A DNA stretch of 64,000 nucleotides from Macrocystis pyrifera (taxonomy: Eukaryota; Sar; Phaeophyceae; Laminariales; Laminariaceae), in contig JASSKH010000028.1 in NCBI GenBank assembly GCA_031763025.1, forward strand, positions 124,001 to 188,000, read 5' to 3'. Under the pieces are notes generated by a model, which saw nothing but the letters and a program-made list of their open reading frames with translations, did no database searches and was not told the DNA's origin. Each line of letters opens with the position of its first letter. Position 1 is the stretch's first letter. The translations under genes and the position numbers were made by a program. Positions 38,119 through 63,400 of the stretch are shown here, in pieces.

Positions 38119-38122
38119 TGCA

Positions 38123-38586
38123 TGTGATATGAGTAGAGCACTCATGGGCTATAGATATAGATAATACGTTGCAGTCTTGTAGTTCCACGAATACGAGAAT
38201 AATCCAAAGAATGGATTAACCCGGCGGATATTCCGTTAGTCGAGAGTATCGTTATTTTAGGAATGTTCCTTGATGCAGATAGGACTACGAAGTGAGAAGT
38301 TCTTATATTAGTAGAAGAACGATCGGTAGCCATAGGAAAGTTCTGTTGGAGTACATCAGATAAGAGGAATTTAGGAGAGTTTGTGGCGTGGGGTGGGACG
38401 AGTATATCTGGGCGTCGAGTCCCGCCCCCCTACCTCTCACTTCTCTACCAGAGCACCTCCTCAGCTCTCGCCATCAACAAGAAGATCTAAATCAGAAGAA
38501 GCGAAGCACTGCTTTCCAGCTGCCAGAACAACCTGCGTCCCTTGCCACTACCCTTACCACTACCCTAGAGCCTTCCCCGCATCACA
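38123..38586 (+). repeat. 5' LTR
   Basis: 464 bp with TGTGAT at the start and ATCACA at the end. A GAGTATATCTGGGCG segment near 38400 is a possible TATA-type promoter. The other LTR has the same length and about 98.7% identity. Confidence 0.9.
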
Positions 38587-39051
38587 TCTGACGTCGTCGC
38601 ATTCAACGAATGTTCTGGCCAAGCTTGGGACTGCAGCGCTTCTTCTAGATCTTCTCACGATCATGTGAGCCATCCCTATATCCGGGAGGCATCTGGTTTT
38701 GAAGTCAACATTTTATTTATTTATTTTTGTTTATGTTCCCTGTTTCTCGTTTCTTTCGTTCTTCTTGCTCTCTCTTTTCTTTCGTTTTTTTTTTTCTTCT
38801 TTTTATTTTACGAACCTGCGTTACTGAGTGCGTTTTATAGTGTAGAGCGTGACAAGCTGCCTAGTGGCATAAGTAGGCGCTTCTCCCCTCCCAGTATAGG
38901 TGAGTTGGCGCTTCTCCCCTCCTAGTAGGCACCGTCAAATCGCACGTGCAAGTACGTACGTACAACAAGCTCTGTTGTTCTTTCTTAGTAAGTACTTGAT
39001 ATATAAGTACTGGTGCTAATAGCAGTATGATGATCGAGGTTTGTTTTTCCG

Positions 39052-39898
39052 ATCCTCGAAGCAGCTGAACAGTTCATGGGCAGGTGGCACGAGGCTGAGG
39101 CAAAGCTGAGTAGACAGCGCCGTGCATCCGCTGCAGGTAGTGTTAGAGGGAATGGGGGGAGGGGTAACAGCAGGAGGGGTAGAGGGAACACCGTACAAGT
39201 GTATAGGGGCAGGGGGGGGAACAGGAGGAGTAGAAGGGAAACCGCGGTAGAAGAGAGTAGCAGAGAGACCGCAGATAGGGTAGCAAGGTACCAGGCCGAC
39301 TAATAGGTTGGACGTTTCTTTGCTACTCGTACCGCCAACTGCTGCGGCCGTTCGGTATGCATTTTGATTTTTTTCCCTTCTTATCCTTATGAAAGAAGTA
39401 CTACATAGTGGGTGGGTGACGAGCGTATTTTGGCCCACTCACTATTGCTCTTTTTACTTAGTTAAGTGTTCACCGGGATGCATAGTCCCCTTTTTCCTTC
39501 TCGTATCTTTCCCCTTGCACGTCCCTTTTGGCTCATGCTCGGGGTAAGTATGTATGTGTCTGAGCTTTGGCTTCCCATTTTATTTATTTATTTGGGATTC
39601 TTCTCCTTTTCTTTTTCTTTTTCTTGTTCTTTTTCGGTTTGGTTTTTTCGTTGCTTCTCTTTCTTTATGGTGTATTTTGGTTGCTGGCGTATGTATGTAT
39701 GTTGTGTCGGCCGCACCTAGTGCGAAGGCATGGTATTACGTAGGCTATTAATGCATTACGGTGTGTTATCTCTGTGTCGTAGTCTGTGACCACAGAGCTC
39801 GTATCTTTCTAGGGTGAAGAATCAGCACGGACACTGGGCTTGCTGGATGTCGACGAGTAGAAGAACGGTTTAATGTGAAGAAACACACACACACACAC
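39052..39898 (+). mobile_element. LINE copy F (3' end) inserted in the LTR element leader
   Basis: The plus-strand 3' piece of the RTE-like LINE starts at GATCCTCGAAGCAGCTG and ends in (CA)n at 39884-39898. It encodes the last ~80 codons of the RT frame, ending RYQAD, plus the full 3' UTR. It is nearly identical to copies E and H. Because it sits inside a young LTR element, it must be younger still. Confidence 0.87.
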
Positions 39899-42477
39899 AT
39901 ACCCCGTCTCCGCCGTGGAATGACGAGGTCGATGACCTCCACGATATGTGATTCCACGTGGTTGAATGCACCTGGAGACCCCCCAAATGACCTCGTGCTC
40001 ATCGCACAAACCAAGCAGCGTTTTCCTTTGTACCCCTCCGCCTCGATATGCCCGCCCTTTCACAGGGAATGCACGTAGTAAGTACTACTGTAGGTGGAAC
40101 TACTGGCACATTCTTGCCCGCAGACATTTTGTCTGCATCTTCCGGTCTATACCCGTGTTGTATGGGATTTGACCCTTACCACGACTACGAAGAAGCTGCT
40201 ATCGTACTGATAGGACAAACACGCAGCAGTACCGACACCTTATTCTTTGGTACGTGATATGTATGCCGGTGGTGTGACTTACTAGTATACGCATCTGTAT
40301 GCAGTGTACAAACGTCTCGACCATAATTGCGAATTGTATCCGCTTGTATCCATCGCATGGAATATTCGCCTGCGAGTTCTTGAGAAGCCATTATTATTAT
40401 TTATTTATTTTTACCTGATACGAGCAATGGTATACGTATTGACTGACCTTACTTGCGACCCCCTGATAGCGAGAAGAGCCACATATATTGTTTTATTATT
40501 TTTTTTCGTGCCCTTTTTTTCTCATGCCCTTTGGTTACTGGATTTCAAACCACATACTGGCCTACAGAGACTGGTATACGAGCGAGGTACAAATAGTGAA
40601 TAGTGGTACGATGGTACGTAGTACTGCTATTACGAATATAGTACCAAAATTTCCCGTGACCCCCCCCCTCGTTCCCTGCCATATATTTAGGTAGCCAAAC
40701 GATACACAATTGGGTAAGTCCCCCCGTCTCGATGTGATGGAGTCGCACATCCATCGTATAGGAACGCATATCCTCGGCAGACGAATCTTATATGGTTGCA
40801 CGTAGCTCTTTAGGGATATATCTGTAGGCGAATCTCACGTGGTTATACGTACCTCGTTTGGGACCAGCGTACATATCTGCACCCCTCTTCAGATTGGCCC
40901 ATCGTTACGCTGCTTCTACCCTACGAGGTACAGAACAAGCGGCATGATGCACCTCCTGCGGAGCCTTTACTATATAAACAGGGCGCATGTTGCCGAAATT
41001 GACCAGATTTCTGCTACCTTTTTTGCCCCACCCCCACAGCCTGTAGATACAAACAACGGCCATTATTTCCATTTTTTTTGTTTTATTTTATTTTACTGCT
41101 GCTCTTTACGTGCACGTTTCCCAGCGTTAACGACATAACACAGCTTTATGATGCTGAACGTTGTCCCACGGCTGCCTGTGTGCATCTAAATTTCTCAGTT
41201 TTACACCAGAAATAAGGTATAAGCTGCCTACGTGCACGATCTTCAGCGTTAACGATACAACGAGGCTTTATGGCGCCCAACCTTGTCTGACTACTGCTGT
41301 TTACGTCTACCCCCCCCCAGCTGTACTACATTAACAGAATGTACGATACCTGATCTGGTCCGAATATTTTGTTTGGTCGTGTTTGTTTTCCCTCCCTTTC
41401 CCGTTTCGCTTTCGACTTTTGTTTTTGTTTTCTCTTTTTTTTTTTCTTCTCCACTTTTTAGCCCTAGCAGGGTAGACACTGTTCAAGTTTGTTACAAGTT
41501 TTATTTTCCAGCGCATCCCATCTCCACCCGCTTTTACAAATATGCAGGGTACAGGCTGCCTAGAACTGTAACACTACAAAGGTTACACAAACGATTAACA
41601 TATCATCTGTTTATCCCTTGTTTGTCCAGCTTCTCACAAAAACAGCAGCTGCCTGCTGCTCATATATGGAACATAACTGTGGCCCGGGCAGTGACCAGTT
41701 CCAAAGAGATGAACTAAATGCTGGCCAAATTAAACAAAAATATATACCTGGTACAATTTTTCGCGGCGGATTAGAGTATTGGACCTCCCCACAGGAGCCA
41801 AATGATACCCTTTTCCACATTTTTACGTACCGGGGTCTATTTATTTATTTTTTTTGTTTCCCACTTGTGCTACCTCTACGATACCCTACGTATCTCACAT
41901 CGTGTCGGACCTCGCGACGCCCCGAAATGCACCGGTTACTGTCTGTTTTGCCACGGAACAACAAGCTGCTCACCGTTCAGGGAATCGCCCGATATTCTGT
42001 GCAGCTACTAAATAGTGCCGGCATGCTGCATTTTTTTCCCGACTCGACCGGCACATTTTCTTTACGGGTACTCTTATTTGTATCCCAACGAAAGGTCTTG
42101 CACTGCCCACGCTCAGTAAGCATCACGCCCTGTTATCATTACGAACATTGGGCATTTCAGACGGAGTTCTGTTCAATTCTGTTCAACGGATATCACTTGA
42201 GTGACCCCGGCGCGACTACCGTCAATCAAACGCGAGGTGCCTGGCGCTAGTTAGATGCCCTCAACTATAAAAATATCCTTCGACGGGCACTAAAATCGTG
42301 GCGCGCACAACCTCAACACCCCCTATCGTACGTCCTTACCGTCACTCCTTTCTCTCTCCTAGATCGGTTTGTTGGTATTGTAGCCGCCTACCCTGATCCA
42401 AGCCTGGATCCACCCGCCCTCTCCATCTTCCACCAAACCTTTTCCCGCCCCAGTGCAAGCGTTCCACCCGCCTAAAC
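39899..42477 (+). other. Leader of the LTR element, no clear gene
   Basis: About 2.6 kb of T-rich sequence between the LINE insertion and the Gag-like region. Two ~65-bp segments are related: about 41105-41172 and 41228-41292 (both TACGTGCACG, then CAGCGTTAACGA and GGCTTTAT or GCTTTAT). Open frames up to 210 codons show no known domain. Confidence 0.5.
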
Positions 42478-44130
42478 ATGGCCGAGAAAGCTTCCTCCAC
42501 CAACATTCCCGGCGCCCACTCCCCCGACGCCACCAACCCCCGCGAGGCGAGGTATGCCGCAAGGGCCTTTCGCGCTACCGACGACGACACCCCTGGCTTC
42601 GAAACCATTCTGAGCGACTTCACGCTACACCCCACCACACCGGGATCTTCTCCAATGGGAGCAGGCACGACCAGTGCCGGGCCTACCATCAACCCGGAGG
42701 TCTCTGCACAGGAAACCTCCACCCTGGCTCTCAATCCGGGGCGTTACCAAGGCGATCCCACGGCCCTCCGTGAGCGCCGTGCGGCCCTCAAAGCCCACCA
42801 CGAGCAGCTCCTCCTTCTCGCGAAAGAGGGCGCTGACCTCCTACTCGTGTTACCGCCGTTCCCCACCCCTTCCTCGAACCCTTTCGACTCCACCTATGGG
42901 ACTACAGCTGCGACCGCGGCCACCACGGCCCAATCGCAGCCGTTCGCTCCTCACCATGGGCACCCTATACGTCCGCCGCGATGTCTAGGACCACCACCTC
43001 TCAGCCTCCCAAAAACCAAACTGGGACCATAATGTCCCAGGCACCACTACCGGCCCAACCCTTGCCAGCCCCCATACCCACTGGGCACCGGCACCCGCAG
43101 ACGTTCGGCTTTGAGCCCAATGACTGGGTCTTCCTCGACGCTAAGCTCCGCTGGATGCAGAGTACACGCGACGCGACGGCCTCGGATGTCTCGCTAGAGG
43201 TACACCGTGTATGGCGGCTCTTCACACCCGACTGTAACCCGTCGATCACTTTCGTTCTGGCCCGCGCCGCCACCGAGGGTGTTTCTTCCGAGTTCATCGG
43301 GGCCGCCCATACCCGTTTACTCGAGCCACGGTATTTTCACTCGAACGCCGGCCGCGGCTACGTGTGGAACCCAACCGTCTCGACCCGCTCCCCCGACACC
43401 CTCAACCACCCGCCCCACGACGGACATGCCATCGCCGGTGACACCGCCCCTTCCCACCTCGACAGCGCCGCCCCCTACGACGACAGCGCCCCGCTCCTCA
43501 CGAGCGCGCAGCCGGATGACGAGAGCCAACACGGAGCCCACGACGGAGGCGGAACGTCGTGGTGTCCCACGCCCAAGCCCTACGAGCTCACGGTGACCAC
43601 TGCCCCAACTGCAATGGCACGGACATAGTATGAAGACCTGCCCCCTGCGCTTCGCAACACGTTCGGCATCCTCAGCCCGATAGTCGGACACGCCTAGCGC
43701 CAATGGCAGCAGAGGATGCTCTTATATCGCCGTGGACACTACGAGCACAACCTGGAGCGAAACTCCAACCGCTACGACAACAACAACCGTCGAGGCAACA
43801 ACAACAACAACCGCAGCGGAAACTACAACAGCAACCACTCCAACCAGAACCACTCCCGCAACTACCGCGGCAACAACGGGCGCTCCGACAACTGGCGCCA
43901 CAACAACGGCCGGTCATACGACAACGGCAACCGACAGTCGCCAGGGCAACAGTTCCAACAACAACGCATCGAGCCTGCCCCCCTCGTCTTCCGCGTTGAC
44001 GGTGCATACCCCTGCGACCAATACTTCCGCACCTGCCGCCCCCGCGAACATGCGGATGGGCAGCACCAACTCGGGTACCCACCCGAACCAACGGCAGCCG
44101 GGAACCTTCCGCACCAACTGACAAGCCGAT
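42478..44130 (+). pseudogene. Gag-like region of the LTR element
   Basis: A first part is hydrophilic and Pro/Thr/Ala-rich with a LRERRAALKAHHEQLLLLAK helix. The next has FGFEPNDWVFLDAKLRWMQ and RVWRLFTPDCNPSITFVLAR, a compact, less biased block that could be a capsid-like core. The last is Asn/Arg/Gly-rich, as in nucleic-acid-binding Gag tails. Assigned by position and composition; I see no firm zinc knuckle. Fossil. Confidence 0.55.
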
Positions 44131-44208
44131 GGTGGAGCAACTGCCGCATCTCCACCAACAGCATCTACTGCGAGCACCCGAGGCTCCCAGGACGCACGAG
44201 TAAATCAC

Positions 44209-46743
44209 GTGCATCACGCCTCCCCGACCCCTGCCCTCCAATGCCCCCCCCCTACCCCAGCCCATTTCACAGTCACTTGTTCAAGCACTGATCATCTTGC
44301 CCAAGTGATTGCCTTGAGGTGTGGGCGGGAGGAGGCCAAGACGCCGAGCCCCACCGGGATGCTCCACTCGACGTCTTCTGGCGGTGAGCAACGCTGCTTG
44401 CCGACTATTGCCGAGACCCCAGACATTGCTACCCTGGGAAACGTCTCGACGATTACGGCTACCAGCGGTTCCGGTTCACACGAAACTACTGTTTCGTCTA
44501 CCGGGCCACCGCCCCCTGAGCCTGCCTCATCAAGGCCGCTCCATACGCGCATGTTCCAGCATGCGCGTATTTCTTGTGACAGCGTTGAACCCGCGAACGA
44601 CGGGCTTCTTCCAGCTGCTACGGTGTTGACACCACCGCTGTCCCTGAGCTCGAGGGACAGTCCCGTTTTGAATACGGAAGACTCGCGACCAACGTCGACC
44701 AGGGTCTGCCCTGAGCCCCCTGACCCGTCCTCCTCGCCTGCTTCGCGCAAAGCGTGGACACGGACCCCAGGTGTGGCATCCCCTAGCGAGTATGCCCCTG
44801 TTCTCCAAAAGTTGGACGATAGGGCGCTTGAGGGTCGTCCCGCCCGGCTTATAAGCCCCGGCGAGGACCGCCCCGGTACCTCGGCTTTGCCGAGCAATTC
44901 CCCCGCGAACACGAGGGTTCCGGTCAGCACCGCTCGATCGTTGCTGACTCTACCTCCGTCGACGCCAGGCGGCGATAGGAAAGATTATCGTCGCCCCCCA
45001 CCCCCGACACAAAAGACGCCATCAACTGCACACGTCACCGCCGAGGCCGCCTCATCTTTCCACTTCTTCTGGGACTCCTCTTCGGTCTTTTCGCAGTGGT
45101 ACCTGTGCGACATCGAACACGATGGCGTCACATACAACTGCGCTGAGCAGATGATGATGGCGCAGAAGGCCGCGCTCTTCGGGGACATCACAACTGAGCG
45201 CCGCATCAAAGCGACCCGCGACCCAGCCCGCCAAAAAGCACTTGGGCGAACCGTTTCCGACTTCGACGAAATGGTCTGGGAGCGACACCGCTACACCATC
45301 GCCCTCTACATTAACTTCTCCAAGTTCCGCCAACACCCGGAGCTACGGGAGGAGCTAATAGCAACCGGCGACAAGCACATCGCCGAGGCCAGCCCACACG
45401 ACCTCATCTGGGGCATAGGCTTCAAGGCCGACCATCCGGACGCCTGTGACCCGACGCGTTGGCGTGGTCGGAATCTGCTGGGCAGGATACTGATGGACGT
45501 TCGAGCAAACCTCGGCGCCAATCGCTCCGCCCAGCCTCCATTTCCTCCCCATCTTCATGACCCGGAGCCAACACCCGCCCCCACCGACTCCACCCGGGTC
45601 TCCCCCACAGCCGACGGCATCCACGAAACAAGCCCGACCCCTCCATGGCAACCGCCTACCTCTCCACTTGGGCCACTCCTACCGCCGTCTACCCCCGACG
45701 CCTACCCCAGCAGCCACTTTGCCCAAGTGTCCACCATCAACACCGCAACTCACAGCCACCTCCCTACCCGCCGCCCGCCGATACCGGAACACGGACCATG
45801 CCTTACAAGCGGCATCATTACCGTCGACGACGCGTCGTTCACGACGAAAGTACTCGTACACAGCGGCCCCACCACCACTACGCGCCGCGAACTCGTGGCA
45901 CTGCTCGATACCGGCTCGCCCCAGTCGTTTATCACCGCAACCGCGATGGAGCAACTGAAGGCTTCCCAGGCAGCCACCGATGCGTGCGAACGGCACAGTT
46001 CCCCCCGTTCATGGGGAGGTTTCGGCACTTCAGACCCCCTCTCCACCTCCGTCTCCATCCGCTTAAGCATCCAGTTTATGCGCCTCCAGTCCCCCACTGC
46101 TGCCCTGGCAGTATGGGCCTGCGTAGTTCCTGCAGGAACCATGCAGCACCCCATCCTTCTGAGACGAGACAGCTGGATGCGCTTCGAGCAACGCTCGTAT
46201 ACCACGCTCCAGCAACAGCCCCCCCCCCCCCCCCACCAACCTAACCGGCGAACCCGCGGTGAGCTCTCCTTGAACCACCATGACCCCAACGGAGCCTCTG
46301 CATTCATTTCCAACGATCGTTCCACTGACGACGTCTACCCCCTCCGATTCGCCGGCAACAAAGCTATTTCGCTTTCCTCCACCCCCAAGCTCGTCAAGGT
46401 CAACCTGGCGCGTCAGTCAGGCGCTCCAGCATTTACCGGGAACTACATGGTGAACATGCTCCCCCGCGAGAACCCCCTGTCCGACCCGGCCATTTTCGTC
46501 TCCGACGAATACCTAACGGTCCCACTATCTGGATCTACCGATCTCGAGCCGGGCGACCTCCTCGGAACCTCCTGCTCCCCACTGGTACAGGCACCACTTT
46601 CCACCCTTGGACACCCTTCCTTGGCCCCTCCCCATCCCCCTCCGATTCCGGATGTACATGCCCTCCACGACAACATCCCCGTGGCCGACCAGAGCCCATC
46701 GACAGACGACTCTCCTACCGCACCAAAAGCCCCGTGCCCATAA
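44209..46743 (+). CDS. Element open frame carrying NADAR and aspartic protease domains (844 aa)
   Basis: Residues 1-280 are low-complexity and Pro/Ser/Thr-rich. Residues about 284-435 are a well-preserved NADAR (YbiA/DUF1768) domain: FHFFWDSSSVFSQWYL, YNCAEQMMMAQKAALFGD, ALGRTVSDFDEMVWERHRY, HDLIWGIGF, and WRGRNLLGRILMDVR. The family cleaves N-glycosidic bonds of ADP-ribose- or ribose-phosphate-linked bases; members remove ADP-ribose from guanine and act on riboflavin precursors. Near residue 565, ELVALLDTGSPQSFI is a retropepsin active site, which processes Gag-Pol. Position upstream of the protease suggests NADAR is made as part of the Gag-Pro product (inference). Its residue pattern matches cellular NADAR closely, so it was probably under selection until recently. 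Confidence 0.85.
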   Translation: MHHASPTPALQCPPPTPAHFTVTCSSTDHLAQVIALRCGREEAKTPSPTGMLHSTSSGGEQRCLPTIAETPDIATLGNVSTITATSGSGSHETTVSSTGPPPPEPASSRPLHTRMFQHARISCDSVEPANDGLLPAATVLTPPLSLSSRDSPVLNTEDSRPTSTRVCPEPPDPSSSPASRKAWTRTPGVASPSEYAPVLQKLDDRALEGRPARLISPGEDRPGTSALPSNSPANTRVPVSTARSLLTLPPSTPGGDRKDYRRPPPPTQKTPSTAHVTAEAASSFHFFWDSSSVFSQWYLCDIEHDGVTYNCAEQMMMAQKAALFGDITTERRIKATRDPARQKALGRTVSDFDEMVWERHRYTIALYINFSKFRQHPELREELIATGDKHIAEASPHDLIWGIGFKADHPDACDPTRWRGRNLLGRILMDVRANLGANRSAQPPFPPHLHDPEPTPAPTDSTRVSPTADGIHETSPTPPWQPPTSPLGPLLPPSTPDAYPSSHFAQVSTINTATHSHLPTRRPPIPEHGPCLTSGIITVDDASFTTKVLVHSGPTTTTRRELVALLDTGSPQSFITATAMEQLKASQAATDACERHSSPRSWGGFGTSDPLSTSVSIRLSIQFMRLQSPTAALAVWACVVPAGTMQHPILLRRDSWMRFEQRSYTTLQQQPPPPPHQPNRRTRGELSLNHHDPNGASAFISNDRSTDDVYPLRFAGNKAISLSSTPKLVKVNLARQSGAPAFTGNYMVNMLPRENPLSDPAIFVSDEYLTVPLSGSTDLEPGDLLGTSCSPLVQAPLSTLGHPSLAPPHPPPIPDVHALHDNIPVADQSPSTDDSPTAPKAPCP

Positions 46744-46859
46744 CTTCTTGCACGCCTCAACGCCGACCAACAGGAAAGCTTACTCGACCTTTGGGAACGT
46801 CTGCCGTTACACCTACGCGACGTCAACTTCGACCTGCACGGTTCTAGATGAACCCCGTC

Positions 46860-47110
46860 GGTGATCAACAACCTGGGAGACGTCCTCTGCGAATTCCAGG
46901 ACGTCTTCTCCACCACCAAGACTGACTTCGGCTCGTGCCCGCTCATGCCGTTCAAGATCACCGTACCCCCGGACAGCCCAACGGCTCGAGCTCCTTTCAG
47001 CGTACACCTACACGCTGGAGTACCGGAAGGGCACGGCCAACGACAACGCCGACTTCCTCTCCCGGCTTCCCCAACCAGCCACCGACGCCGACCGCACCGG
47101 ACGCAACCGC
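46860..47110 (+). pseudogene. RT/RNase H-related part of the LTR element
   Basis: Short blocks typical of Ty3/gypsy Pol occur: VLCEFQDVFSTTKTDFG, as found before the RT, and YRKGTANDNADFLSRLP, as found at the end of RNase H. Fossil; only these parts are recognisable in this copy. Confidence 0.65.
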
Positions 47111-47669
47111 CTCACTGGCCCCGACACCGTCGGCATCTACCTCATCCGCCCCTGCGGCTTCGCGCCGAACGACCCTTCCACCCCGGGTATCGGCTTGGGT
47201 GGGCTCGTGTCCCCCCCTTCCAGACCCATCCCAACCGTCCAGCCGCTCCCCTTCACCGACGACGACTTCCGCGACTTTCGCCTACTCGGACCACGTATGG
47301 AGCACCCCACCCTTTCCCCCGCAACCCACACCTTCATCGGGCCTATTGCGACCAGCGACTCCACCACCGGACAGCTTGCCGGCACCGAGAATGCCGCCGT
47401 GAACACCGGAGCTCCTCCAGGCTCGGCTTCCATGCCGTCCGTCGTCTCTCCGCCGCCCACCATTGGCGCCACGACACCAGCCCTTTCAGGTCTGATATCT
47501 TCTCGGACCCGCCATCGCGTCGCCGCTGCCGCGGGAACCCCTCGGCCTACAGCCGACTACCGGTTTGGACGCCGACCGCCACCCAAGCCATTGGCGCCCA
47601 CTACGCAAAGAACGACACCCTCAACAATGCCCTCTCCGCCGGCACCAACACCACCGGTAGTGCCCCTTC

Positions 47670-49013
47670 TTGAGCCCGTCGTCGAACCCGATGACGAACC
47701 CTACCTCCTCGCCTAGGTCGAGCACTACACCTACAAAGACTGGGCGCGAGAACAACGCGCGGAGCCCCTGTGCTGCGCCACCATCCGCTTCCTGTCGTTG
47801 GACTCCCCCAGCCCCACGCCGCACGACCTCCTGGACTTCATCCCCCCGGCCTGGCGCCCACAACGTTCGGACGTCCTCACTTTTGCCTCCAAAAGCAAGC
47901 TACACCGTACCGACGACGAAAACCGCCCTCCTGGTCCAACGACCACCCACAACCTCATCCGGGAACAGCCTACCACCACCCGCCCCCTCTACCCCACGCG
48001 TCTACGTGCCAATGTTAATGCGCCCTTGGGTGCTGAACACATGCCACTCCACCACCTCTCTACACCTGGGAGTCACCCGAACGGTCCGCATGTTGGCACG
48101 TTTCTTTTGGTGGATTGGCATGGACGCTTCCGTCCGCTGGTGGATCCGCCGTTGCCTTCAATGCCAGGCGCGGAAGACCTCCCGGCACACCATTCGTTGG
48201 CCCATCCTTTCTCTTCCTTTGCCCAACGGGCCTGGCATCACCGTCAGCGTCGACTACTTCGGGCCCCTGCCGCTCACGCCGCGCGGGAACGTCCACATCC
48301 TCCTCTTCACAGACCGCTTCAGCCGCCGCGCCGATATGTATGCCGTTTCAGCGGTGCAGTTCACGGCCGCCGGCACTGCCGACATCTTCCTGAACGAGTA
48401 CATCCCTCTCTGGGGGTGCCCGGTTACACTTCTCTCCGACAACGGACTACATCTCACCTCCAAGCTTGCGAACATCGTCTACGAACGCCTTGACGTCCAC
48501 AAGGTCAACACCAGCTCCTACCACCCCTGCACCAACGACGGCGTCGAGCGCGTCAACCACGTGCTGGCCCAAATGCTCTCTATGGTTGGCAACGAACAGC
48601 AGACCGACTGGGACGTGCTGCTCCCACACGTGTCGTCGGCCTACAACAATTCCGTGAACGCCGCCACAGGGCTTGCACCTAACAAAATCCACATGGGCCG
48701 CCTTCCTCGCCTCCCGCTCTCGGTCTTCGAACCCGACAGCATCGGCGGTCACCAAAGCCTGGACCGCGATCACCTGGTTTACATCAACCTCGCCACCGAC
48801 CGACAACGACGCGCCTATTCCCTCGTCCGCGAACTACACCGACTCACCGTCTCGCGTCTTCAGCGCCGCAATGCGCCCATCATGGCCGCCCTCCTAGCAT
48901 CCCCCCCCTTCACCGTAGGCGACTGGGTTTGGGTCTACAACTCCGCCTCAACCATCCGCCAAGGCGCCAAAAGGGCACCGACGCAACCGTCCTCAAGGCG
49001 AAGCTTTCCCTGA
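47670..49013 (+). pseudogene. Integrase part of the LTR element
   Basis: A His/Cys zinc-binding N-terminal block ends with WWIRRCLQCQARK. The DDE core follows: SVDYFGPLPL with the first Asp, LLSDNGLHLTSK with the second, and NDGVERVNHVLAQM with the Glu, spaced as in retroviral-type integrases. AYNNSVNAATGLAPNKIHMG is the usual end of the core. The enzyme would join element DNA to the target and produce the short target duplication seen at the ends. Confidence 0.85.
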
Positions 49014-49957
49014 ACTGGAATGGCCCCTTCAAGGTCCTTGCCGTAGGGCCGACGCCCGCCTCAAACACCCCCGACAATCGCCCCCTTCACGACAAGCTAC
49101 TTTTCCTCGACCTTCCATCGGACCTTCCGGGACGGGACTCCAAGCCACGCGTCTCCGTCCAACGATGCAAACCTTGCCGGAACCCCGACGACACCAGCGA
49201 CATCCCCAAGCATCTGCCCGCGGACCTTACTACATACGTGCTCACAGCTTCTGCCGCCAAGTCCCCCCCTTACCACGTCACCGTCGACGACGTCACTCCT
49301 CCACCGGAACGCCTCGAGGTCGAGCAGATCACTGGCCATCAACTCGTACGCGGCCGCGGCGGGGTCATCGCCGTTCTGTACGAGACTCACTGGACTGGAC
49401 TTCTCAGCCCCTCGTGGGAACGCGAGCTGGACCTTCAACACTTCCGGCGCCACATCCTACTTTACTGGTCACGATCACCAACCCAGCACCGCCAGACGAA
49501 CCGCCTCTACCGCCAGATGCGCATCGGCGCCGCTCACCGCGAACTGGCCCGATCTCAAGGACAAATCTTCCTCGCCCCAGGCTACGCCTTGGTCTCCCGC
49601 AGCCTTTGGCTCCACAACTTCAGCACCACCATCCTACCCTCCGGAGCACACATATGGTACAAGGCGCGCGACGGCCTTTGGTGGCTGGGCAAGGTCGCCC
49701 ACAGCTCACCCCCTGACGCCTCTTCGGGAACTCCGCCGGAGTCTTCACCGGGAAGCTCCTACATCGTCCGGTTCCTGGACGACCCCGGCCCGATCAAGAT
49801 CGACCTCCAACCCGCCCGCTACACTACAGCACGGAACGCCGTATACGGATCGTGGTGTCTTCAACGCCATGGGAATGGGAGCCTAGCACGTGGGGTGCTG
49901 CGGAACTCTGATGTGTCCCGCGGAACCCCCACCGTTTCCACTCCCCCCCCTGGTTAG
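48929..49957 (+). pseudogene. Chromodomain and Tudor-like tail of the LTR element
   Basis: At about 49313-49470, LEVEQITGHQLVRGRGG and SWERELDLQHFRRHILLYW form a chromodomain, which in chromoviruses steers integration to modified chromatin. After a linker, a second small domain (about 49635-49830) reads WYKARDGLWWLGKV and YIVRFLDDPGPIKIDL, resembling a Tudor or Agenet barrel. That would be a second histone- or methyl-reading module (inference). Pol end; a 1.58-kb trailer separates it from the 3' LTR. Confidence 0.75.
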
Positions 49958-51533
49958 CCTTAGTTTAGTCTTTTGTTAGTTCTGGGTATTTGGTTCTGGT
50001 TAGTCTGCAATATCTTAAGAGTTGTTCTTCAGGGCTAGTCTTCAATAGTCATCAGCAGTCATCTTCTTGGGAGTGTTTGTTTCCATCTACCGCCACCGGT
50101 ATCGCTTGACCGACCCCGTGTTGGCTACCGATCCGAGGCCGTGTATGTTTCTTTTTTTTTTGGGCGTGTTTGGGAGTATCATCGTCCCCCCCACCCCCGC
50201 CGTTTGTTTTTTCTTCTTATCGCCTACGGCTCCGTGTAACCTCCTTACGTTCAGGCCACTGACTGGTAGCGATACCTTCATTTGCATTTGTGTTTGTACT
50301 CCACTAGCCTACAGCCAATTGTCGGCGATATCACGCCGAGGTAAAATCGTGTTGTAGCCTGAGCTGTGCTCTGACCTCAGTCGACTTCGGCCGACCCGTG
50401 TTTCAGACGGTCCTCGAGCTAAGACTATATCGAGCTTCCAGCTCACCCGTGTTTCTTCCATGTTTGACAAGTAGGGTCCCGATAGCATTGCCGCCCCGGA
50501 AGGCCGCTGAGTTATCGGCCATACATAAGCGGTTCGGACGTGATCGATTTCTCCTGACCTGTGCCCAGCTTTTTGTCTGTTTTCTGGTCCGGATGGTATT
50601 TCGTTTTCTCTTTCCCTTTTCTTCTTCTTTCTTTCTTGTCCGGTATTCCGCACACACCCCTCTGTCCTCTGGCAAACGACACCACGTTTGATGTCGCCCC
50701 GGTTGACCGAGTTGCACACGCTAGTTTTTGGGCCCCGCGCTATCTACAACTTCGAACTGCACGCATTAGGCCGATTTTCTTGCGGATTTTCTTGCGATTT
50801 TCTTGCCGCCACCGTCTTTGAGTTTGTTTTTGTTGAGTTGGCTACCTTGCTACGATTGCTGGTTTTGTTCACACCACGGACAGGTCTCCGAGATGCCGCG
50901 TTGTTTGTTGCGTCTCTCGGTTTTAGTAGTCCCTAGTACACGCAGCCCTCATAGCACTCTAGCTGTGTCCCTTCTGTCTCGCATGATGACTACCATGTTA
51001 GGACCTTCGCCACAAGACAAGGCATGGGGCCTAGCGGATATATATATATATATGTTTTTTGAATTGTGATCGCTGTCTCCTTTTTAGAGTTTCCTCGTTC
51101 GCCAACCCGGTTCAGCGAACAACCCTTTCGTACTTCCTTGGGCCCCAGACAATGGCTCCAGTGAAACGCTTGTACGTCCTTCTTTTGCCTTCATTTGGGT
51201 CTTCGTTTTCTTCTTCGGCCTTCGCTTTCGGTTTCTGCCTCATTTTGCGTTCGTCTTTCTTTGTTTTCATTTTGGGTGATTTTTCCTTTCGCCTCTGCTA
51301 CGAGTTCGGTGTCTCTCTCCTTTAGTCTCCCTTTCCGTCGTTGTTCGCAGCGAACACCCCCTCTTCGTAGTGTTTGGGTTTTATTACGAGGTGTGGGGGG
51401 ATCTATAGCCTCATTTCTTTTGTTTCGAATAGCCGCATCTTCGACCACCTTTTTCTGGCCGTTCGGGATGAACTTTGTCATCACCCTCCGACCATCTTGT
51501 GGTCTGCATATACGACTATTCAGGGTGGGCTAA
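49958..51533 (+). other. Trailer of the LTR element
   Basis: T-rich, with Phe- and Ser-coding low-complexity frames and an AT-dinucleotide run near 51040-51052. No gene seen. The purine stretch directly before the 3' LTR is weak (CAGGGTGGGC), so the polypurine tract is uncertain. Confidence 0.5.
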
Positions 51534-51997
51534 TGTGATATGAGTAGAGCACTCATGGGCTATAGATATAGATAATACGTTGCAGTTTTGTAGTTCCACG
51601 AATACGAGAATAATCCAAAGAATGGATTAACCCGGCGGATATTCCGTTAGTCGAGAGTATCGTTATTTTAGGAATGTTCCTTGATGCAGATAGGACTACG
51701 AAGTGAGAAGTTCTTATATTAGCAGAAGAACGATCGGTAGCCATAGGAAAGTTCTGTTGGAGTACATCAGATAAGAGGAATTTAGGAGAGTTTGTGGCGT
51801 GGGGTGGGACGAGTATATCTGGGCGTCGAGTCCCGCCCCCCTACCTCTCACTTCTCTACCAGAGCACCTCCTCAGCTCTCGCCATCAACAAGAAGATCTA
51901 AATCAGAAGAAGCGAAGCACTGCTTTCCAGCTGCCAGAACAACCTGCGTCCCTTGCCACTACCCTTACCACTACCCTAGAGCGGGCTCCGCATCACA
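51534..51997 (+). repeat. 3' LTR
   Basis: 464 bp, same ends and orientation as the 5' LTR, followed by TGCA that matches the four bases before the 5' LTR. Confidence 0.9.
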
Positions 51998-52001
51998 TGC
52001 A

Positions 52002-54426
52002 GCTGTCGGCGGCCAAGCTGCTGCTGTCGGTGGCGAACCTGCTGGTGCTGCAACCCCCGCCTCTCCCTTCTCCACGCCCCCTAAGCTCACCTCCCCCTCG
52101 TCGAGAGGCGCGTGGTCCTCGCCCTCTGGCAAGAGAGCGGCAACGACAAAGACCGACCTGGTGCCGGGCTGTTGTTTGCGACCAGTGCACAGACCAGCAC
52201 TTGGTCAAGAACTCCGCGCCTGGTGGCAAAAACGTGGCCTTCGCCACCTGCAAGGATTTCACGTGCGTGGTGGCGGGATCATCCTGACAGGGCAAACGAC
52301 TGCGAGTTCTGTGCTCGCCCGATCAAGGAAGGGACTGTCTCGTATTCCCTCGAGACTGCTGACAGTGATGAGTGTCTTATGTCTATTGTGCATGCTGTTT
52401 GTTGCCAGTACGTTTTTTGGGTTTTCAATTGCCTTTTTGCATACAAACCTACGTCAAAGCGTTTATTTATTTTTTACTCATCCATGCTCGTTCTTTCTCC
52501 TTCGTGCGTTGCGTCGGCTCCTCTTACACACAGTGCACACGAACGCGCACATGCACAACTGTTTGCGGGACGTCAACGAAGGAACGGAGGATTCAGCTGT
52601 CGCCGTCACCGCTGCACCGAACGACGTGAGTGCTACTGCTACTGTGGTGCATTTTCGGTGCATGCACACGATTTCTGTGTGTACATGTTTTGGTGACCCC
52701 ACGTACTCATTTTGCTCGTTTTCGGCTGCCGCTGCTGCTGCTGCTGCTGTCAGCGCCACGCCATGAGTGCTGCTGCTGCTGTGCACCTGCTTCTCCTGTG
52801 CACTCGCTGCTGCTGTAGTGCTGCTGCGTTGTTGCCGTGCTGTGCACCTGCTGCTCCTGTGCAATTGCTGCTGCTGTATGTAGTGCTGCTGCGTTGTTGC
52901 CGTGCATCATGCTGGAAGCGTACATATTTTCGGATCGTCAATTCCGTAGGTTTTGCGATGGAGGCATACCAGGGTACATGCTTTTTTTCTTCCTTATTTT
53001 CATATCGTTGCTATGCTGCTGCTGCTGCTTCTGCTGCTGCTGCCAACGCTGCGGCGATTCGTTGCAGCTTCTGCTGCTGCTAATGCTGTAGCTGCTTCTG
53101 CTTCTGCTGCTGCTAATGCTGCCGCAATATCCACTGAATGTTCGTATGTACTCGGATTGCTGTTTTTCTTGGTCGTTTTTGTACCCAAATGGTTCCTTTT
53201 ATTTGATACGTGAAAAAATATTTTTGTCGTTTTGCTCCTGCATTTTGCGTACGTACTATTTCTCGTTTTTGGCTTGGTTATTTTCATATATATCGTTGCT
53301 ATGCTGCTGCTGTGGTGCTGCTGCGTTGTTGCCGTACATCATGCTGCACCTGTGTGAGTACATATTTCGGTATCGTCAATGAAATTCCGTAGGTTTTGCG
53401 ATTGCGGCATACCAGGGTACGTACTTTTTTTCTTCCTTATTTTCATATCGTTGCTATGCTGCTGCTGCTGCTGCCAACGCGGATTATTGTTTTTATTGGC
53501 CATTTTTGTACCCAAATGGTTTTTTGATACGTAAAAAAAATATTTTGGTCGTTTTGCTCCTGCATTTTGCGTACGTACTACTTTTTCTCGTATTTCGTAT
53601 TGTTGCTATGCTGCTGCTGCGTTGTTGCCGTACAGCATGCGGAGGTGGGTCTATAGTGAGGTATCAAACATACTTTTCGGACGGCCTCGGGGTACATACT
53701 TTTTTTTTCTCCCTTCTTTTCATATCGTTGCTATGCTGCTGCTGCCAACGCTGTGGCGATCCGTTGCTGCTGCTGCTGCTGCTGCTGCTGCTCTGCTTTT
53801 AGTGCTGCTGCAATATTCACCGAATGTTTGTATGTACTCGGATAATTGTGTTTCCTGGTCGTTTTGTGGCGCTGCTGCGTTGTTGCCGTACATACATCAT
53901 GCTGGACGTGATTTGTGTGTCTATTAAACTTAAATTTAAAACTCGTGCGTGTGTACATGTTTCTGTATCGTCAATGATTTTTTTTGTGGTGCTGCTGCGT
54001 TGTTGCCGTACATCATGCTGGACGTGATTTGTGTGTGTACTGTACTACACTTGTGTGTGTACATATTTCTGTATCGTCAATGAAATTACGTACTTGCTGC
54101 TTCTGCTGATGCTGCTGCTGCCGTCGTATAGCAAGCGATTACGTACTGCTGTTGTGCCGCTGTAGAGTAGTACGAATAATGAACTCTGCCCCCCCCCCCC
54201 CTTCCCCCTCCCCCGCCATTCCCTGCACGCCGCTCCCGCCCCGCGCACCCTATATGTTTACTTCGACCAGGTCCGTGGCAAGTGCTACAACTGCCGCCTG
54301 ACGGACTCCACCATCAAAGACGGAGACATCATCATCAAGCGCAAAAAGACTCCCTTCCATTTCGCCTGCTCCAGGGCTTCGCGGGATTCCGAAGCAGTAT
54401 ACGCCAAGCAGATTGTCGCCATCTAG
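52002..54426 (+). CDS. Probable two-exon gene with paired CxxC...HxxC zinc-binding segments
   Basis: The first exon candidate (up to about 52408) contains CEFCARPIKEGTVSY and, further on, SIVHAVC. The second (about 54255-54426) contains CYNCRLTDSTIKDGDIII and FHFAC, then a TAG. Both share a C-x2-C, an IK-E/D-G turn and H-x2-C, so they look like two copies of one treble-clef finger, reminiscent of PARP-type or LIM-like fingers. A GTACGT donor-like site follows the first (52408) and a pyrimidine-poor ACCAG precedes the second (54269), so exact junctions are uncertain. The intervening 1.8 kb is repeat DNA. The LTR element inserted directly upstream and may have separated the gene from its 5' part. 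Function unknown. Confidence 0.45.
52409..54250 (+). repeat. Intron-like block of CTG/GCT triplets and minisatellite
   Basis: Runs of GCT/CTG lie at 52728-52750, 53015-53045, 53458-53475 and 53761-53795, among others. Two longer motifs recur in order: TTCATATCGTTGCTATGCTG (52997, 53282, 53443, 53719) and GCTGCGTTGTTGCCGTACAT (about 52890, 53320, 53875, 53995, with variants). The unit is some 150-400 bp with variable triplet length. Likely arose by repeated slippage and duplication. Confidence 0.8.
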
Positions 54427-57951: not shown

Positions 57952-58827
57952 GTGTGTGTGTGTGTTCTTCACATTAAACCGTTCTTCCACTTGTCGACAT
58001 CCAGCAAGCCCTGTGTCCGTGCTGATTCTTCACCCTAGAAAGATACGAGCTCCGTGGTCACAGACTACGACACAGAGATAACACACCGTAATGCATTAAT
58101 AGCTTACGCAATGCCATGCCTTCGCACTAGGTGCGGCCGACACAACATACATACATACGCCAGCAACCAAAATACACCATAAAGAAAGAGAAGCAAAGAA
58201 GAAACCAAACCGAAAAAGAAAAAGAAAAGGAGAAGAATCCCAAATAAATAAATAAAATGGGAAGCCAAAGCTCAGACACATACTTACCCCGAGCATGAGC
58301 CAAAAGGGACATGCAAAGGGGAAGATACGAGAAAGAAAAGGGGGACTATGCATCCCGGTGAACACTTGACTACGTAAAAAGAGAAATAATGAGTGGGCCA
58401 AAATACGCTCGTCACCCACCCACTATGTAGTACTTCTTTCATAAGGAACAGAAGGGGAAAATATAGGGAAAAGCTAAGTCATGGAAAAAAATCAAAGCAC
58501 CAAGCCAATACATACCGAACGGCCGCAGCAGTTGGCGGTACGAGTAGCAAAGAAAAGTCCAACCTATTAGTCGGCCTGGTACCTTGCTACCCTATCTGCG
58601 GTCTCTCTGCTACTCTCTTCTACCGCGGTTTCCCTTCTACTCCTCCTGTTCCCCCCCCTGCCCCCATACACTTGTACGGTGTTCCTTCTACCCCTCTTGC
58701 TGTTACCCCTCCCCCCATTCCCTCTAACACTACCTGCAGCAGATGCACGGCGCTGTCTACTCAGCTTTGCCTCAGCCTCGTGCCACCTGCCCATGAACTG
58801 TTCAGCTGCTTCGAGGATTCCCCTGTA

Positions 58828-60186
58828 TCACTTTCCCGTCTGTTTTGCTGCAGTGGGCCACAGTGTGGTCCCAACTCCAAAGACTAAGGGGGAGTCTTCC
58901 GTTGATCCCTCGGTGGCTTTGAACACTCTAAGGTCCTCAGCAATGGCCCTAGGCCGAGTCTCGGGCTGCCGGCCTGGTTTCGGGCTCCCCCCACCAGCGA
59001 TCGTCCCGAACATCAACCGACTGGGCAATCGCCCCTCGTGTTGCCGCACCACAGCCCCCGCAAAGAAGAGTCGCCGTTTACGGATGGTCGTTTCGATACT
59101 TTTGTATCGTGTTATCCTGAGCGCCTTCGCATACGAGAGGGTGGTGTGGTCGGTGCGTAGTCGGCGCTGGAGGCCAATGACTCGCAGAAGGACTTCGTGG
59201 TGGGCTGATCGAAGCTTGGCGAAGTGGTCCGCATTGAGGGTCCACGTCACGCAACCGTACAGCAAGGTCTCAATCACCTCGGCCTTCAGCATCCGGACTT
59301 TCAGACTAAGCGGTGCGTTCGTCCTATCGTACAGTTCCGGACCATACCGTTTGAGGCATGCCCGCATCAGACGGATTCGTCGCTCGATTTCGAAGGAGAG
59401 GTCAGCGTTCTCGTGGATAATGCCTCCTAGGTACAAAAACTGGGTCGTCTGTTTATACTTATAACCTGCAGCTTCGATTGCGAGCGGTGAGGTGGTAAAC
59501 GTCTGATCCGGTGTTCGTAGGAGCATCGTCTCTGTCTTCTTCTCGGATACCGTGAGACCTACTGCTTCGAAGACAGTCACGATGACTGTCATCATTCTTG
59601 CAAGGCCTTCCGCCGACTTCGAGACTATTCCTGCGTCATCTGCATACAACATGCCCCACACAGCCCTTTGCCCGCATGCCAACGGTTCCACTTTTCCGAC
59701 AACCATGTCCTCTTCGAGATGAACCAAATCCCTTACGATACATTCGTCTTTGCTGAGGCGTACCAGCACGATGTGTATCGCAGCGGCGAAGAACACGTTG
59801 AACAGTATCGGCGATAGTACGCAGCCTTGCCGCAGCCCCTGGGTTACATTGAACCAGTCCGAGTGTTCACCGTCATCCGCAGGCATGCGAGCCCGCATGC
59901 CTTCGTGAAAATTGCGAATGATTGTGAGCATCTTGGTTGGTACACCAAGGCGTGTGAGTACCTCCCACAACAGTTCTCGGTCGACAGAGTCGTACGCTTT
60001 CTGCACGTCAATGAAGCACATGTACAGGGGGATTTTCTTCTGCCGCCCGAGTTCCTGCAACCGGCGCACGACAAACAGCATATCGACTGTTGACCGTGCG
60101 GGGCGGAAGCCGCACTGTTCTTCAGGGAGTATATGCTCGGTCTCGCAGTAGCTGCTTAGACGGGACGCAACGATTTTCAGCAACAC
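58828..60186 (-). pseudogene. LINE G reverse transcriptase, 452 codons
   Basis: Starts at [20 protein letters not shown] and includes [31 protein letters not shown] and YADDAGIVS, ending KQTGK and a stop. The N-terminal RT block is in another frame because of the shared A-run shift. RMPADDGEH and [12 protein letters not shown] link it to copy H. Confidence 0.83.
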
Positions 60187-60400
60187 CTTGCCTGCGTGAG
60201 CAACAAGCGAAATACCTCTGTAGTTGTTTCAATCAGTTCTATCCTTCTTTTTGTGAAGGGTTTTTTATGATCGCATCTTTCCGTTGCTGGGGGACTTCTC
60301 CCGTTACCCAAACGTTAACAAGGATACTGTGAAAATACTGCACGAAAGCGGGGTGGTCAAGTTTCAGTACTTCGACCGGGAGACCATCTGGTCCAACGGC

Positions 60401-60985
60401 TTACCAGTTTGACATACCCTTCACTGCTTCCATCGCCTCGTCAATGGATGGTTCATTTCCAAGGAATAGTTTCAGCGGTCGTGGTGGCACTAGGTCGATG
60501 ATCGTGGGGTCAAGTTTCAGCGATTTCGTGTTGAATAGTTTGTGGTAGTGCCTCGCCCATCTTTCACGAATTCGCGCATGATCCCGCAACAGCGTGCCAC
60601 CCACGTCCATGATAAACTGTTCACTCCTCGCTTTCGTACCTTGCAACCCTACCGTACTCTTCAGGTGCTTGTAGAACCCTCGTTGATCGGAACTCGCGAG
60701 GAATTTCTCAGTTTCAGCGAGGTACTCTTCAAAATACGCATTGACTCCTGCGGCGACCACTTCCTGCAGATTCGCACAGGCGGATTTCAACTTGTTCTAC
60801 GCTGTACTATCTCGGGGGTAGACACGCAAGAGCTCTCTCGCATCCCCCCTCGCTGTCCATGCTACTTTGAAAGCGGCCACCGTTTCGGGGGTCTCACACC
60901 AACCGTTTCGGTGGTGGCGACGTGGTGGAGGTGGCACCTCTTTTTCAACAGCATTCATGACAGTTGTGGTGAAAAACTCAACCAT
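60401..60985 (-). pseudogene. LINE G linker domain
   Basis: Two adjoining frames (60401-60790 and 60797-60985) match the domain between endonuclease and RT in copy E, with RGFYKHLKSTVGLQGTK and ending GMSNW plus a stop. Confidence 0.75.
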
Positions 60986-61780
60986 GCCAGACGTGTTACG
61001 AGGCTGGGTAGGTTGGTTAAGAGTGGAAACGACCCTCTCGACTATTCGGTGTCGACACTCTCCATCGGATAAGAAAAGCTGCCTGTCGAATTCTCGGCGT
61101 TTTGGGGGTTTTCAGCAATCTTCAGTTAGACGAACCACTAAATTGGACCTTGATGTTCACGATGTTATGGTCTGAATCAGCCTTAGCAGGTGGTGTGTGT
61201 GTGTGTTCTTCACATTAAACCGTTCTTCTACTCGTCGACATCCAGCAAGCCCAGTGTCCGTGCTGATTCTTCACCCTAGAAAGATACGAGCTCTGTGGTC
61301 ACAGACTACGACACAGAGATAATACACCGTGATGCATTAATAGCCTACGTAATACCATGCCTTCGCACTAGGTGCGACCGACACAACATACGTACACCCA
61401 AAATACACCATAAAGAAAGAGAAGCAACGAAAAAACCAAACCGAAAAAGAACAAGAAAAAGAAAAAGAAAGAGAAAAGGAGAAGAATCCCAAATAAATAA
61501 ATAAAATGGGAAGCCAAAGCTCAGACACATACATACTTACCCCGAGCATGAGCCAAAAGGGACGTGCAAGGGGAAAGATACGAGAAGGAAAAAGGGGACT
61601 ATGCATCCCGGTGAACACTTAACTAAGTAAAAAGAGCAACAGTGAGTGGGCCAAAATACGCTCGTCACCCACCCACTATGTAGTACTTCTTTCATAAGGA
61701 TAAGAAGGGAAAAAAATCAAAATGCATACCGAACGGCCGCAGCAGTTGGCGGTACGAGTAGCAAAGAAAAGTCCAACCTA

Positions 61781-63400
61781 TTAGTCGGCCTGGTACCTTG
61801 CTACCCTATCTGCGGTCTCTCTGCTACTCTCTTCTACCGCGGTTTCCCTTCTACTCCTCCTGTTCCCCCCCCTGCCCCCATACACTTGTACGGTGTTCCC
61901 TCTACCCCTCCTGCTGTTACCCCTCCCCCCATTCCCTCTAACACTACCTGCAGCGGATGCACGGCGCTGTCTACTCAGCTTTGCCTCAGCCTCGTGCCAC
62001 CTGCCCATGAACTGTTCAGCTGCTTCGAGGATTCGCCGGTACCGCTTTCCCGTCTGTTTTGCTGCAGTGGGCCACAGTGCGGTCCCAACTCCAAAGATTA
62101 AGGGGGAGTCTTCCGTTGATCCCTCGGTGGCTTTGAACACTCTAAGGTCCTCAGCAATGGCCCTAGGCCGAGTCTCGGGCTGCCGGCCTGGTTTCGGGCT
62201 CCCCCCACCAGCGATCGTCCCGAACATCAACCGACTGGGCAATCGCCCCTCGTGTTGCCGCACCACAGCCCCCGCAAAGAAGAGTCGCCGTTTACGGATG
62301 GTCGTTTCGATATTTACGCATCGTGTTATCCTGAGCGCCTTCGCATACGAGAGGGTGGTGTGGTCGGTGCGTAGTCGGCGCTGGAAACCAATAACTCGCA
62401 GACGGACTTCGTGGTGGGCTGATCGAAGCTTGGCGAAGTGGTCCGCATTGAGGGTCCACGTCACGCAACCGTACAGCAAGGTCTCAATCACCTCGGCCTT
62501 CAGCATCCGGACTTTCAGACTAAGCGGTGCGTTCGTCCTATCGTACAGTTCCGGACCATACCGTTTGAGGCATGCCCGCATCAGACGGATTCGTCGCTCG
62601 ATTTCGAAGGAGAGGTCAGCGTTCTCGTGGATAATGCCTCCTAGGTATAAAACCTGGGTCGTCTGTTTATACTTTTGGCCTGCAGCTTCGATTGCGAGCG
62701 GTGAGGTGGTAAACGTCTGATCCGGTGTTCGTAGGAGCATCGTCTCTGTCTTCTTCTCGGATACCGTGAGACCTACTGCTTCGAAGACAGTCACGAGGAC
62801 TGTCATCATTCTTGCAAGGCCTTCTGCCGACTTCGAGACTATTCCTGTGTCATCTGCATACAACATGCCCCACACAGCCCTTTGCCCGCATGCCAACGGT
62901 TCCTCTTTTCCGACAACCATGTCCTCTTCGAGATGAACCAAATCCCTTACGATGCATTCGTCTTTGCTGAGGCGTACCAGCACGACGTGTATCGCAGCGG
63001 CGAAGAACACGTTGAACAGTATCGGCGATAGTACGCAGCCTTGCCGCAGCCCCTGGGTTACATTGAACCAGTCCGAGTGTTCACCGTCATCCGCAGGCAT
63101 GCGAGCCCGCATGCCTTCGTGAAAATTGCGAATGATTGTGAGCATCTTGGTTGGTACACCAAGGCGTGTGAGTACCTCCCACAACAGTTCTCGGTCGACA
63201 GAGTCGTACGCTTTCTCCAAGTCGATGAAGCACATGTACAGGGGGATTTTCTTCTGCCGCCCGAGCTGCTGCAACCGGCGCACGACAAACAGCATATCGA
63301 CTGATGACCGTGCGGGGCGGAAGCCGCACTGTTCTTCAGGGAGTATATGCTCGGTCTCGCAGTAGCTGCTTAGACGAGACGCAACGATTTTCAGCAACAC
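61781..63400 (-). pseudogene. LINE H reverse transcriptase, 539 codons
   Basis: From [20 protein letters not shown] through [25 protein letters not shown] and YADDTGIVS to the natural end RYQAD. The catalytic YADD is kept. The upstream RT block (about 63.42-63.62 kb) lies behind the shared frame shift and stop. Confidence 0.83.

Follow-up and report, generated by a model that had tools for sequence, protein, structure and literature searches.

A NADAR domain as a regular module of Ty3/gypsy-type retrotransposon families in the kelp Macrocystis pyrifera

We report that a Ty3/gypsy-type long terminal repeat (LTR) retrotransposon of the kelp Macrocystis pyrifera carries a complete NADAR domain in its polyprotein, and that this domain is a regular module of at least four families of such elements. 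The element was found in a window of 64,000 nucleotides (C209:124001-188000, contig JASSKH010000028.1), and its relatives were searched for in the genome of 537,376,219 bases in 223 contigs. The NADAR shows signs of selection while the element moves, and it is kept in a derivative that has lost its reverse transcriptase (RT), to which the copy in the window belongs. The model we propose, to which we assign a probability of about 0.4, is that the Pol-borne NADAR would remove ADP-ribose from guanine on the RNA or cDNA of the element, or act on a nearby ADP-ribose derivative.

Results

A complete NADAR in a retrotransposon polyprotein

The domain lies in a stop-to-stop frame at 44122-46743, where the Pfam scan places PF08719 at residues 315-464 (window positions 45064-45513) with E=8.3e-48 and 163.1 bits, against a curated cut-off of 35.1, covering model positions 1-162 of 163. 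The initial annotation, made from the letters of the window, had drawn it at 45058..45513; its end is the same and its start is now set two codons further in. By sequence, the closest solved structures are the NADAR of Phytophthora nicotianae (8bau, E=7.2e-19) and YbiA of E. coli (2b3w, E=1.3e-8). The AlphaFold2 model of the window NADAR has a mean pLDDT of 95.2, and a fold search of the PDB with this model returns only these two structures at E<=0.001 (8bau, E=2.2e-10, TM-scores 0.82/0.74; 2b3w, E=1.1e-7, TM-scores 0.80/0.80); among viral models, its matches include NADARs from phages, from giant viruses and from nidovirus-like RNA viruses. The profile, the fold and the glutamate at position 125 identify the domain of the kelp element as a complete NADAR of the YbiA subfamily. 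The claim of the annotation that such a domain sits inside a Ty3/gypsy-type polyprotein is confirmed, and so is its statement that NADAR and retropepsin share one open frame: a DTGS motif is present in frame 44122-46743, though Pfam gives only a weak protease match (E=0.2).

A chance match or an artefact is ruled out by the E value, the fold and the recurrence of the domain at 208 places, and a misread host NADAR gene by the reading frame, which here joins the NADAR to the protease region and in a relative to the RT. A protein search with the whole 873-residue frame gave no match at E<=0.001 among 580 candidates, all of them proteins of similar length, and Rfam gave nothing at gathering scores.

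NADAR and RT recur together in the genome

In the family (profile) search the best 150 of 1264 candidates were scored, all 150 being over the cut-off, and in the protein search the best 150 of 1261; merged, the two give at least 208 distinct NADAR places, no two of them less than 1 kb apart. The RT search, with the best 128 of 3687 candidates scored, used the RT of the family B locus L031, where the NADAR is followed in the next frame by RT (4.9e-25) and RNase H (2.6e-18). Only best-scoring candidates enter these searches, so intact copies are over-represented in all counts.

For 33 of the 128 RT rows there is a partner among the listed NADAR rows, and in all 33 the strand is the same and the NADAR comes first; no other order occurs. 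The spacing from NADAR to RT is 1987-2081 bases in 16 of 17 pairs on the plus strand (2525 in the other one) and 2459-2479 in 15 of 16 on the minus strand (2873 in the other one), where the counting of coordinates adds about 468, and a single spacing of about 2.0 kb is common to 31 of the 33 pairs. At C204:7350719, a NADAR row and an RT row 2001 bases further on each report an open frame of 1696 codons. Among the other 95 RT rows, the expected NADAR stretch was checked for 40, the 20 at the top and the 20 of lowest similarity, and a NADAR, frameshifted in several cases, was present near the expected place in 37 of these 40. A NADAR upstream of the RT is thus found in 70 of the 73 RT loci examined among the 128 scored. 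The NADAR is a regular module of the element families; the one-off captured exon is ruled out by this count, and the refutation named in the annotation, other copies lacking the domain, was not borne out in the material examined.

The listed places are unevenly spread: C200 (22.0 Mb, 4.1% of the genome) holds 41 of the 208 (binomial p 7e-17, for rows that are non-independent and best-scoring only), and 31 of these 41 lie beyond 11 Mb. In the published kelp assembly, the second half of scaffold 2, which may or may not be C200, is described as gene-poor in relation to sex determination (PMC10498591).

Element families and signs of selection

The window element belongs to family A; families B, C and D bring the number in the genome to at least four, C and D being sampled only among loci reached via the RT. 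Their NADARs are 45-58% identical between families in global alignments of nine sequences, and up to 59% in local comparison. Between the window and family B, the NADAR is 50% identical with 150 of 150 residues aligned, against 57% for the protease region, 39% for the post-protease region, 22% for the linker and 10% for the proline-rich N-terminus; the NADAR is conserved about like the protease, whereas the flanking linkers are not.

Between families, the nonsynonymous divergence (dN) is 0.35-0.51 and the synonymous divergence (dS) is 2.1-3.6 or beyond computing, which gives, where computable, a dN/dS of 0.13-0.22, a rough value with dS near saturation. An unsaturated pair within family C has dN 0.049 and dS 0.249, a ratio of 0.20. 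Within families, the ratio of nonsynonymous to synonymous changes (N/S) was counted by how often a change is seen. For 95 copies of family A, it is 2.83 for singletons, 1.79 for changes seen 2-4 times and 1.57 for those seen at least 5 times, against a neutral expectation of 2.69-3.48 according to transition bias. The same classes in 24 copies of family B give 1.97, 1.25 and 1.0, the last two from 27 and 4 changes, against 2.60-3.36. These counts omit L112, which has compensating indels, and L041, which is the window copy; L017/L018 and L029/L030 look like duplicated stretches.

An N/S near neutral for the private changes of family A and lower for shared ones is the pattern of selection while moving and of decay after insertion, and the NADAR shows, at this level, signs of both. 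Against this pattern stand a stop inside the NADAR in 14/96 family A copies and a dN/dS of 0.94 between the window and L017. The dN/dS comparison among copies that the annotation had suggested gives signs of purifying selection, and its neutral one-off exon finds no counterpart in the material examined, in which constraint extends across four families.

Residues that hold ADP-ribose

In the Phytophthora enzyme, the contacts to ADP-ribose are described as E43, K50, R79, W89, R93, E125, D130 and W133; Y84 and D86 belong to the adenosine end (PMC11543638). We mapped these positions by hand via the alignment with 8bau, whose crystal numbering is 2 below the chain count. The equivalent of K50 is present in 95/95 copies of family A and 23/24 of family B (118/119), that of E125 in 94/95 and 24/24, being also invariant in a 50-row alignment, and that of E43 in 86/95 and 24/24 (110/119). 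Six further residues, K75 among them, are kept in all 24 copies of family B and, out of 95 of family A, in 89 (K75), 94 (R79), 93 (W89), 95 (R93), 92 (D130) and 92 (W133). Most of the residues predicted by this alignment to contact ADP-ribose are kept in the element NADAR. A glutamate at position 125 is reported to mark the YbiA subfamily, with D in the BC4488 type and H in the phage type (PMC11125620, PMC11543638).

The element in the window and its RT-less derivative

The element occupies 38123-51997 of the window, between two LTRs with TG..CA ends that differ by 6 mismatches over 464 bp. Its features are as follows.

38119..38122, no strand: target site duplication TGCA, 5' side, repeated at 51998-52001
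38123..38586, plus: 5' LTR of 464 bp, TGTGAT...ATCACA, a direct repeat
39052..39898, plus: 3' end of a long interspersed nuclear element (LINE) inside the element leader, not part of the element proper; 85-98% identity to four longer repeats of the window
42397..44291, plus: Gag-like region, in several frames in the window copy, by position and composition; no Pfam match
44122..46743, plus: open frame of 873 codons with the proline-rich N-terminus, NADAR, linker, protease and post-protease region; ended by a stop
45064..45513, plus: NADAR domain (PF08719), YbiA subfamily, by Pfam, modelled fold and alignments
45780..46215, plus: retropepsin-like protease region, DTGS near 45900; weak Asp_protease_2 match, E=0.2
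46852..46975, plus: start of the RT region, by its letters; no RVT match in frame 46865-47713
47000..47071, plus: residual RNase H C-terminus, by its letters, from the translation of frame 46865-47716; no Pfam match
48006..48179, plus: integrase zinc-binding domain H2C2, PF17921, E=1.4e-16
48228..48527, plus: integrase core (rve), PF00665, E=1.7e-4, below the curated cut-off
49316..49471, plus: possible C-terminal chromodomain, weak match to PF00385, E=0.093, below the cut-off
51534..51997, plus: 3' LTR of 464 bp, a direct repeat
51998..52001, no strand: target site duplication TGCA, 3' side, by sequence

The H2C2 domain and the sub-threshold rve lie downstream of the NADAR-protease frame in a different reading frame. 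Combined with the RT and RNase H of relatives, the integrase of the window would give the composite order NADAR, protease, RT, RNase H, integrase. The annotation had the NADAR between Gag and Pol; its presence in the polyprotein stands, and its place is better given as the N-terminal part of Pol, here in a non-autonomous copy.

A genome search with the 3' LTR returned 42 rows from 2270 first-look candidates. Forty of these, the two of the window included, match positions 1-464, and the two partial rows were left out of the comparison of LTR-NADAR distances. Nine of the 40 full-length rows have a listed NADAR row at most 12 kb away, on the same strand in 9/9, and six NADAR copies outside the window have a same-strand LTR 5747-7217 bases downstream, one of them with a further LTR row 100 bp upstream. 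Because the same LTR recurs 3' of six other NADAR copies, the LTRs of the window belong to the NADAR element; at 5.7-7.2 kb downstream and on the same strand, these rule out that the direct repeats are the LTRs of some other element. The other 31 full-length rows, which are not near any listed NADAR row, may be solo LTRs, other derivatives or NADAR copies off the lists. Same-strand LTR pairs only 3.5-4.4 kb apart (C190:3873545/3877936, C208:2204946/2208483 and C125:641592/645289) may be non-autonomous derivatives of reduced length, whether or not they carry a NADAR.

The window copy is a broken, non-autonomous, RT-less one, whose frame stops at 46743 and in which the RT and most of RNase H are gone after about 46976. 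The sequence of this deletion is common to 11 of 16 readable family A loci, that is, to the window and 10 of the 15 others; L017 and L018, which reach no further than the junction, were grouped with the 11 by the letters preceding it. Four of the 16 (L035, L036, L037 and L040) have a different, RT-type sequence past the junction, and one (L038) is unlike both. The distances from NADAR to downstream LTR fall into two groups, 5.7-6.0 kb and 7.2 kb, which fits a loss of about 1.2 kb. Since the deletion is common to several loci, the RT-less derivative exists at several places, and it presumably moved by using the RT of other copies.

Elsewhere in the window, non-LTR retrotransposon copies of up to 3.2 kb lie at 2315-4869, 23837-27061, 57952-61195 and 61192-64000, two of them head to tail, and the open reading frames of three, which were scanned, have RVT_1 matches. 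The LINE piece in the element leader, a 3' end of 847 bp, has a tail of CA repeats. A cluster of GCT-rich imperfect repeats at 52731-54092 follows shortly 3' of the element, and an open frame at 16326-16985 on the minus strand, with a Nucleotid_trans match (PF03407, E=7.3e-15), is perhaps a host glycosyltransferase exon.

Kin of the element NADARs

The element NADARs split into two clades in a tree of 129 rows: A+C (support 94/91, with one stand-alone protein, P0008, inside) and B+D (100/94). A single clade of all 23 element NADARs is not rejected (p-AU 0.253). Proteins with element-like flanks group with family A (for example P0001, P0003 and P0106) or with C (P0080); P0089 was dropped from the element-like NADARs, not being one. 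The best bacterial or archaeal rows of the genome scan, from Polyangia, Nannocystis and Lysobacter, are 52-56% identical. A quick tree of 69 rows drew on a choice of bacterial/archaeal loci (37 of 80) and viral loci (8 of 80), from which any locus with a stop inside the stretch had been removed; in it, Myxococcota rows adjoin B+D with support 83, an adjacency that we take as a lead only to a possible origin.

Some NADAR proteins outside the elements (P0108, P0115, P0118, P0120; P0116, P0121, P0123, P0124) carry other domains by the Pfam labels PF10021, PF03747 and PF01661, which we take to be PARG-like, ADP-ribosylglycohydrolase and macro domains.

Discussion

Relation to known systems

The kind of element described here is already known. 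Of four Gypsy lineages in Ectocarpus, one, with Gypsy-12_Ec32 as an example, was reported in 2025 to carry a NADAR (Genome Biol 2025, PMC12477816), and the view of the initial annotation that no such Ty3/gypsy module was known has to be given up. The main text of that paper has no mention of kelp, Macrocystis or Saccharina, and a literature search found no other report of a NADAR in a retrotransposon among the titles and abstract openings listed. As far as this search goes, what is new comprises the families in kelp, their counts, the signs of selection on them and the derivative without RT. In both algae, the NADAR stands at the N-terminus of Pol. The Ectocarpus lineage is given a putative C-terminal chromodomain, of which the kelp element has only the weak match, and the relatives of its NADAR outside elements are said to be almost exclusively bacterial (PMC12477816); bacterial rows were also found for the kelp domain. 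The kelp case concerns another species and adds at least four families, counts of copies and of active-site residues, signs of selection and the RT-less derivative. Ectocarpus also has Esi0017_0056, a stress-induced NADAR protein of 391 residues with two predicted introns, of which the same alga has two close relatives; it is reported to raise stress tolerance in Arabidopsis (PMC7922944), and it could come from, or belong to, a NADAR-Gypsy element.

Among studied enzymes, the Phytophthora nicotianae NADAR is the best match of the kelp domain by sequence and by PDB fold, with the equivalents of E43, K50, E125, R79, W89, R93, D130 and W133 alike in nearly all copies, but it is, as studied, a non-element enzyme, and its Y84 and D86 are changed in the kelp element. 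NADARs are also described in the ORF1 of Tx1 LINEs of Crassostrea gigas, likewise within a retrotransposon protein, although that element is a non-LTR one and its NADARs are divergent (PMC12477816); the likeness is one of description only. RNA virus polyproteins with NADAR and macrodomains offer another case of an ADP-ribose hydrolase in a replication polyprotein, proposed to undo host ADP-ribosylation, but these viruses are without reverse transcription or integration (PMC9503650). The DarT1-linked NADAR antitoxins (BC4488) belong to the same superfamily, tested members having guanine-ADP-ribose chemistry (PMC11543638); they have D where the kelp element has E125. Membership in a DarT-NADAR toxin-antitoxin system is not supported, with E at position 125 in 118/119 copies and no DarT match in the genome.

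A model for the function of the NADAR, and its rivals

In the model we propose, the NADAR would be made as part of Pol and would enter the virus-like particle with the RNA and the cDNA of the element, where it would probably be freed by the element protease. Acting as an N-glycosidase, it would strip ADP-ribose from guanine on this RNA or cDNA, or clear a nearby ADP-ribose derivative, and reverse transcription or integration would thereby not be blocked by host ADP-ribosylation. The activity is suggested by the NADARs tested in two papers, including an oomycete one of the YbiA type, which hydrolyse ADP-ribosyl-guanine (PMC11543638, PMC11125620).

Several observations weigh against this model. 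Three of the 40 further RT loci (L122, L126 and L159) are without NADAR where it was expected, and the comparison of the window with L017 gives a dN/dS of 0.94, with no selection visible. E43 is replaced in 9/95 family A copies, in 7 of them by G, and in none of family B. At the adenosine end, all 119 copies of A and B have F for Y84; for D86, 93/95 copies of A have E, and those of B have C (20), R (3) or Y (1). Activity of a NADAR in vitro need not mean protection in vivo (PMC11125620). Finally, an exon-by-exon search of the kelp genome gave no match to DarT (PF14487), a search that matched in 1 of 14 control genomes. Given the want of a DarT match and the changes at Y84 and D86, the domain may have a different ADP-ribose substrate.

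A stronger form of the model, in which the NADAR would be an obligatory particle-borne Pol enzyme of the whole brown-algal Gypsy lineage, kept even by the RT-less derivative for stripping guanine ADP-ribosylation from its own RNA or cDNA, seems unlikely to us.

The authors of the Ectocarpus study proposed for the Ectocarpus and oyster elements a role in RNA (PMC12477816). Such a NADAR would serve the processing or binding of the element transcript, for example at RNA ends or on RNA-linked ADP-ribose, and not the reversal of a host attack, and its placement in Pol near the RT fits this role. The Pfam scan of the frame, the one search made for such features, gave NADAR and no RNA-binding domain, and the conserved residues are the ADP-ribose-holding ones, which is weak evidence either way; we consider an RNA role possible, if rather improbable. 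We rate as unlikely a metabolic N-glycosidase of the YbiA type that would clean the nucleotide pool for reverse transcription by acting on riboflavin intermediates, damaged nucleotides or NAD derivatives. Such riboflavin compounds are named as substrates of NADARs (PMC9503650), and the two fold matches include YbiA (2b3w), but a pool enzyme needs no fusion to Pol, an argument and not data. The stops in family A, the pair at 0.94 and the near-neutral private changes of that family would favour a mere passenger, a captured host or bacterial exon hitch-hiking without function. Against it stand the NADAR in nearly all RT loci examined, across four families 45-59% identical, the linkers that decayed while the NADAR did not, and the constraint in shared variants and between families, so that a passenger is very improbable.

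Conclusion

Our observations turn the brief 2025 remark on Ectocarpus into a quantified case of an ADP-ribose-hydrolase domain as a constrained part of a retroelement polyprotein. The RT-less derivative, which keeps its NADAR, allows a natural test for action of the domain in cis. If the enzyme of the proposed model is active, this would point to nucleic-acid ADP-ribosylation as a barrier to retrotransposons in brown algae, in parallel with the macrodomains of RNA viruses and the NADARs of phages. If, in addition, the NADAR were obligatory in the whole lineage, brown algae would possess a so far unknown defence by nucleic-acid ADP-ribosylation in which an enzyme different from DarT adds the mark, and the NADAR families of these elements would be the record of an arms race.

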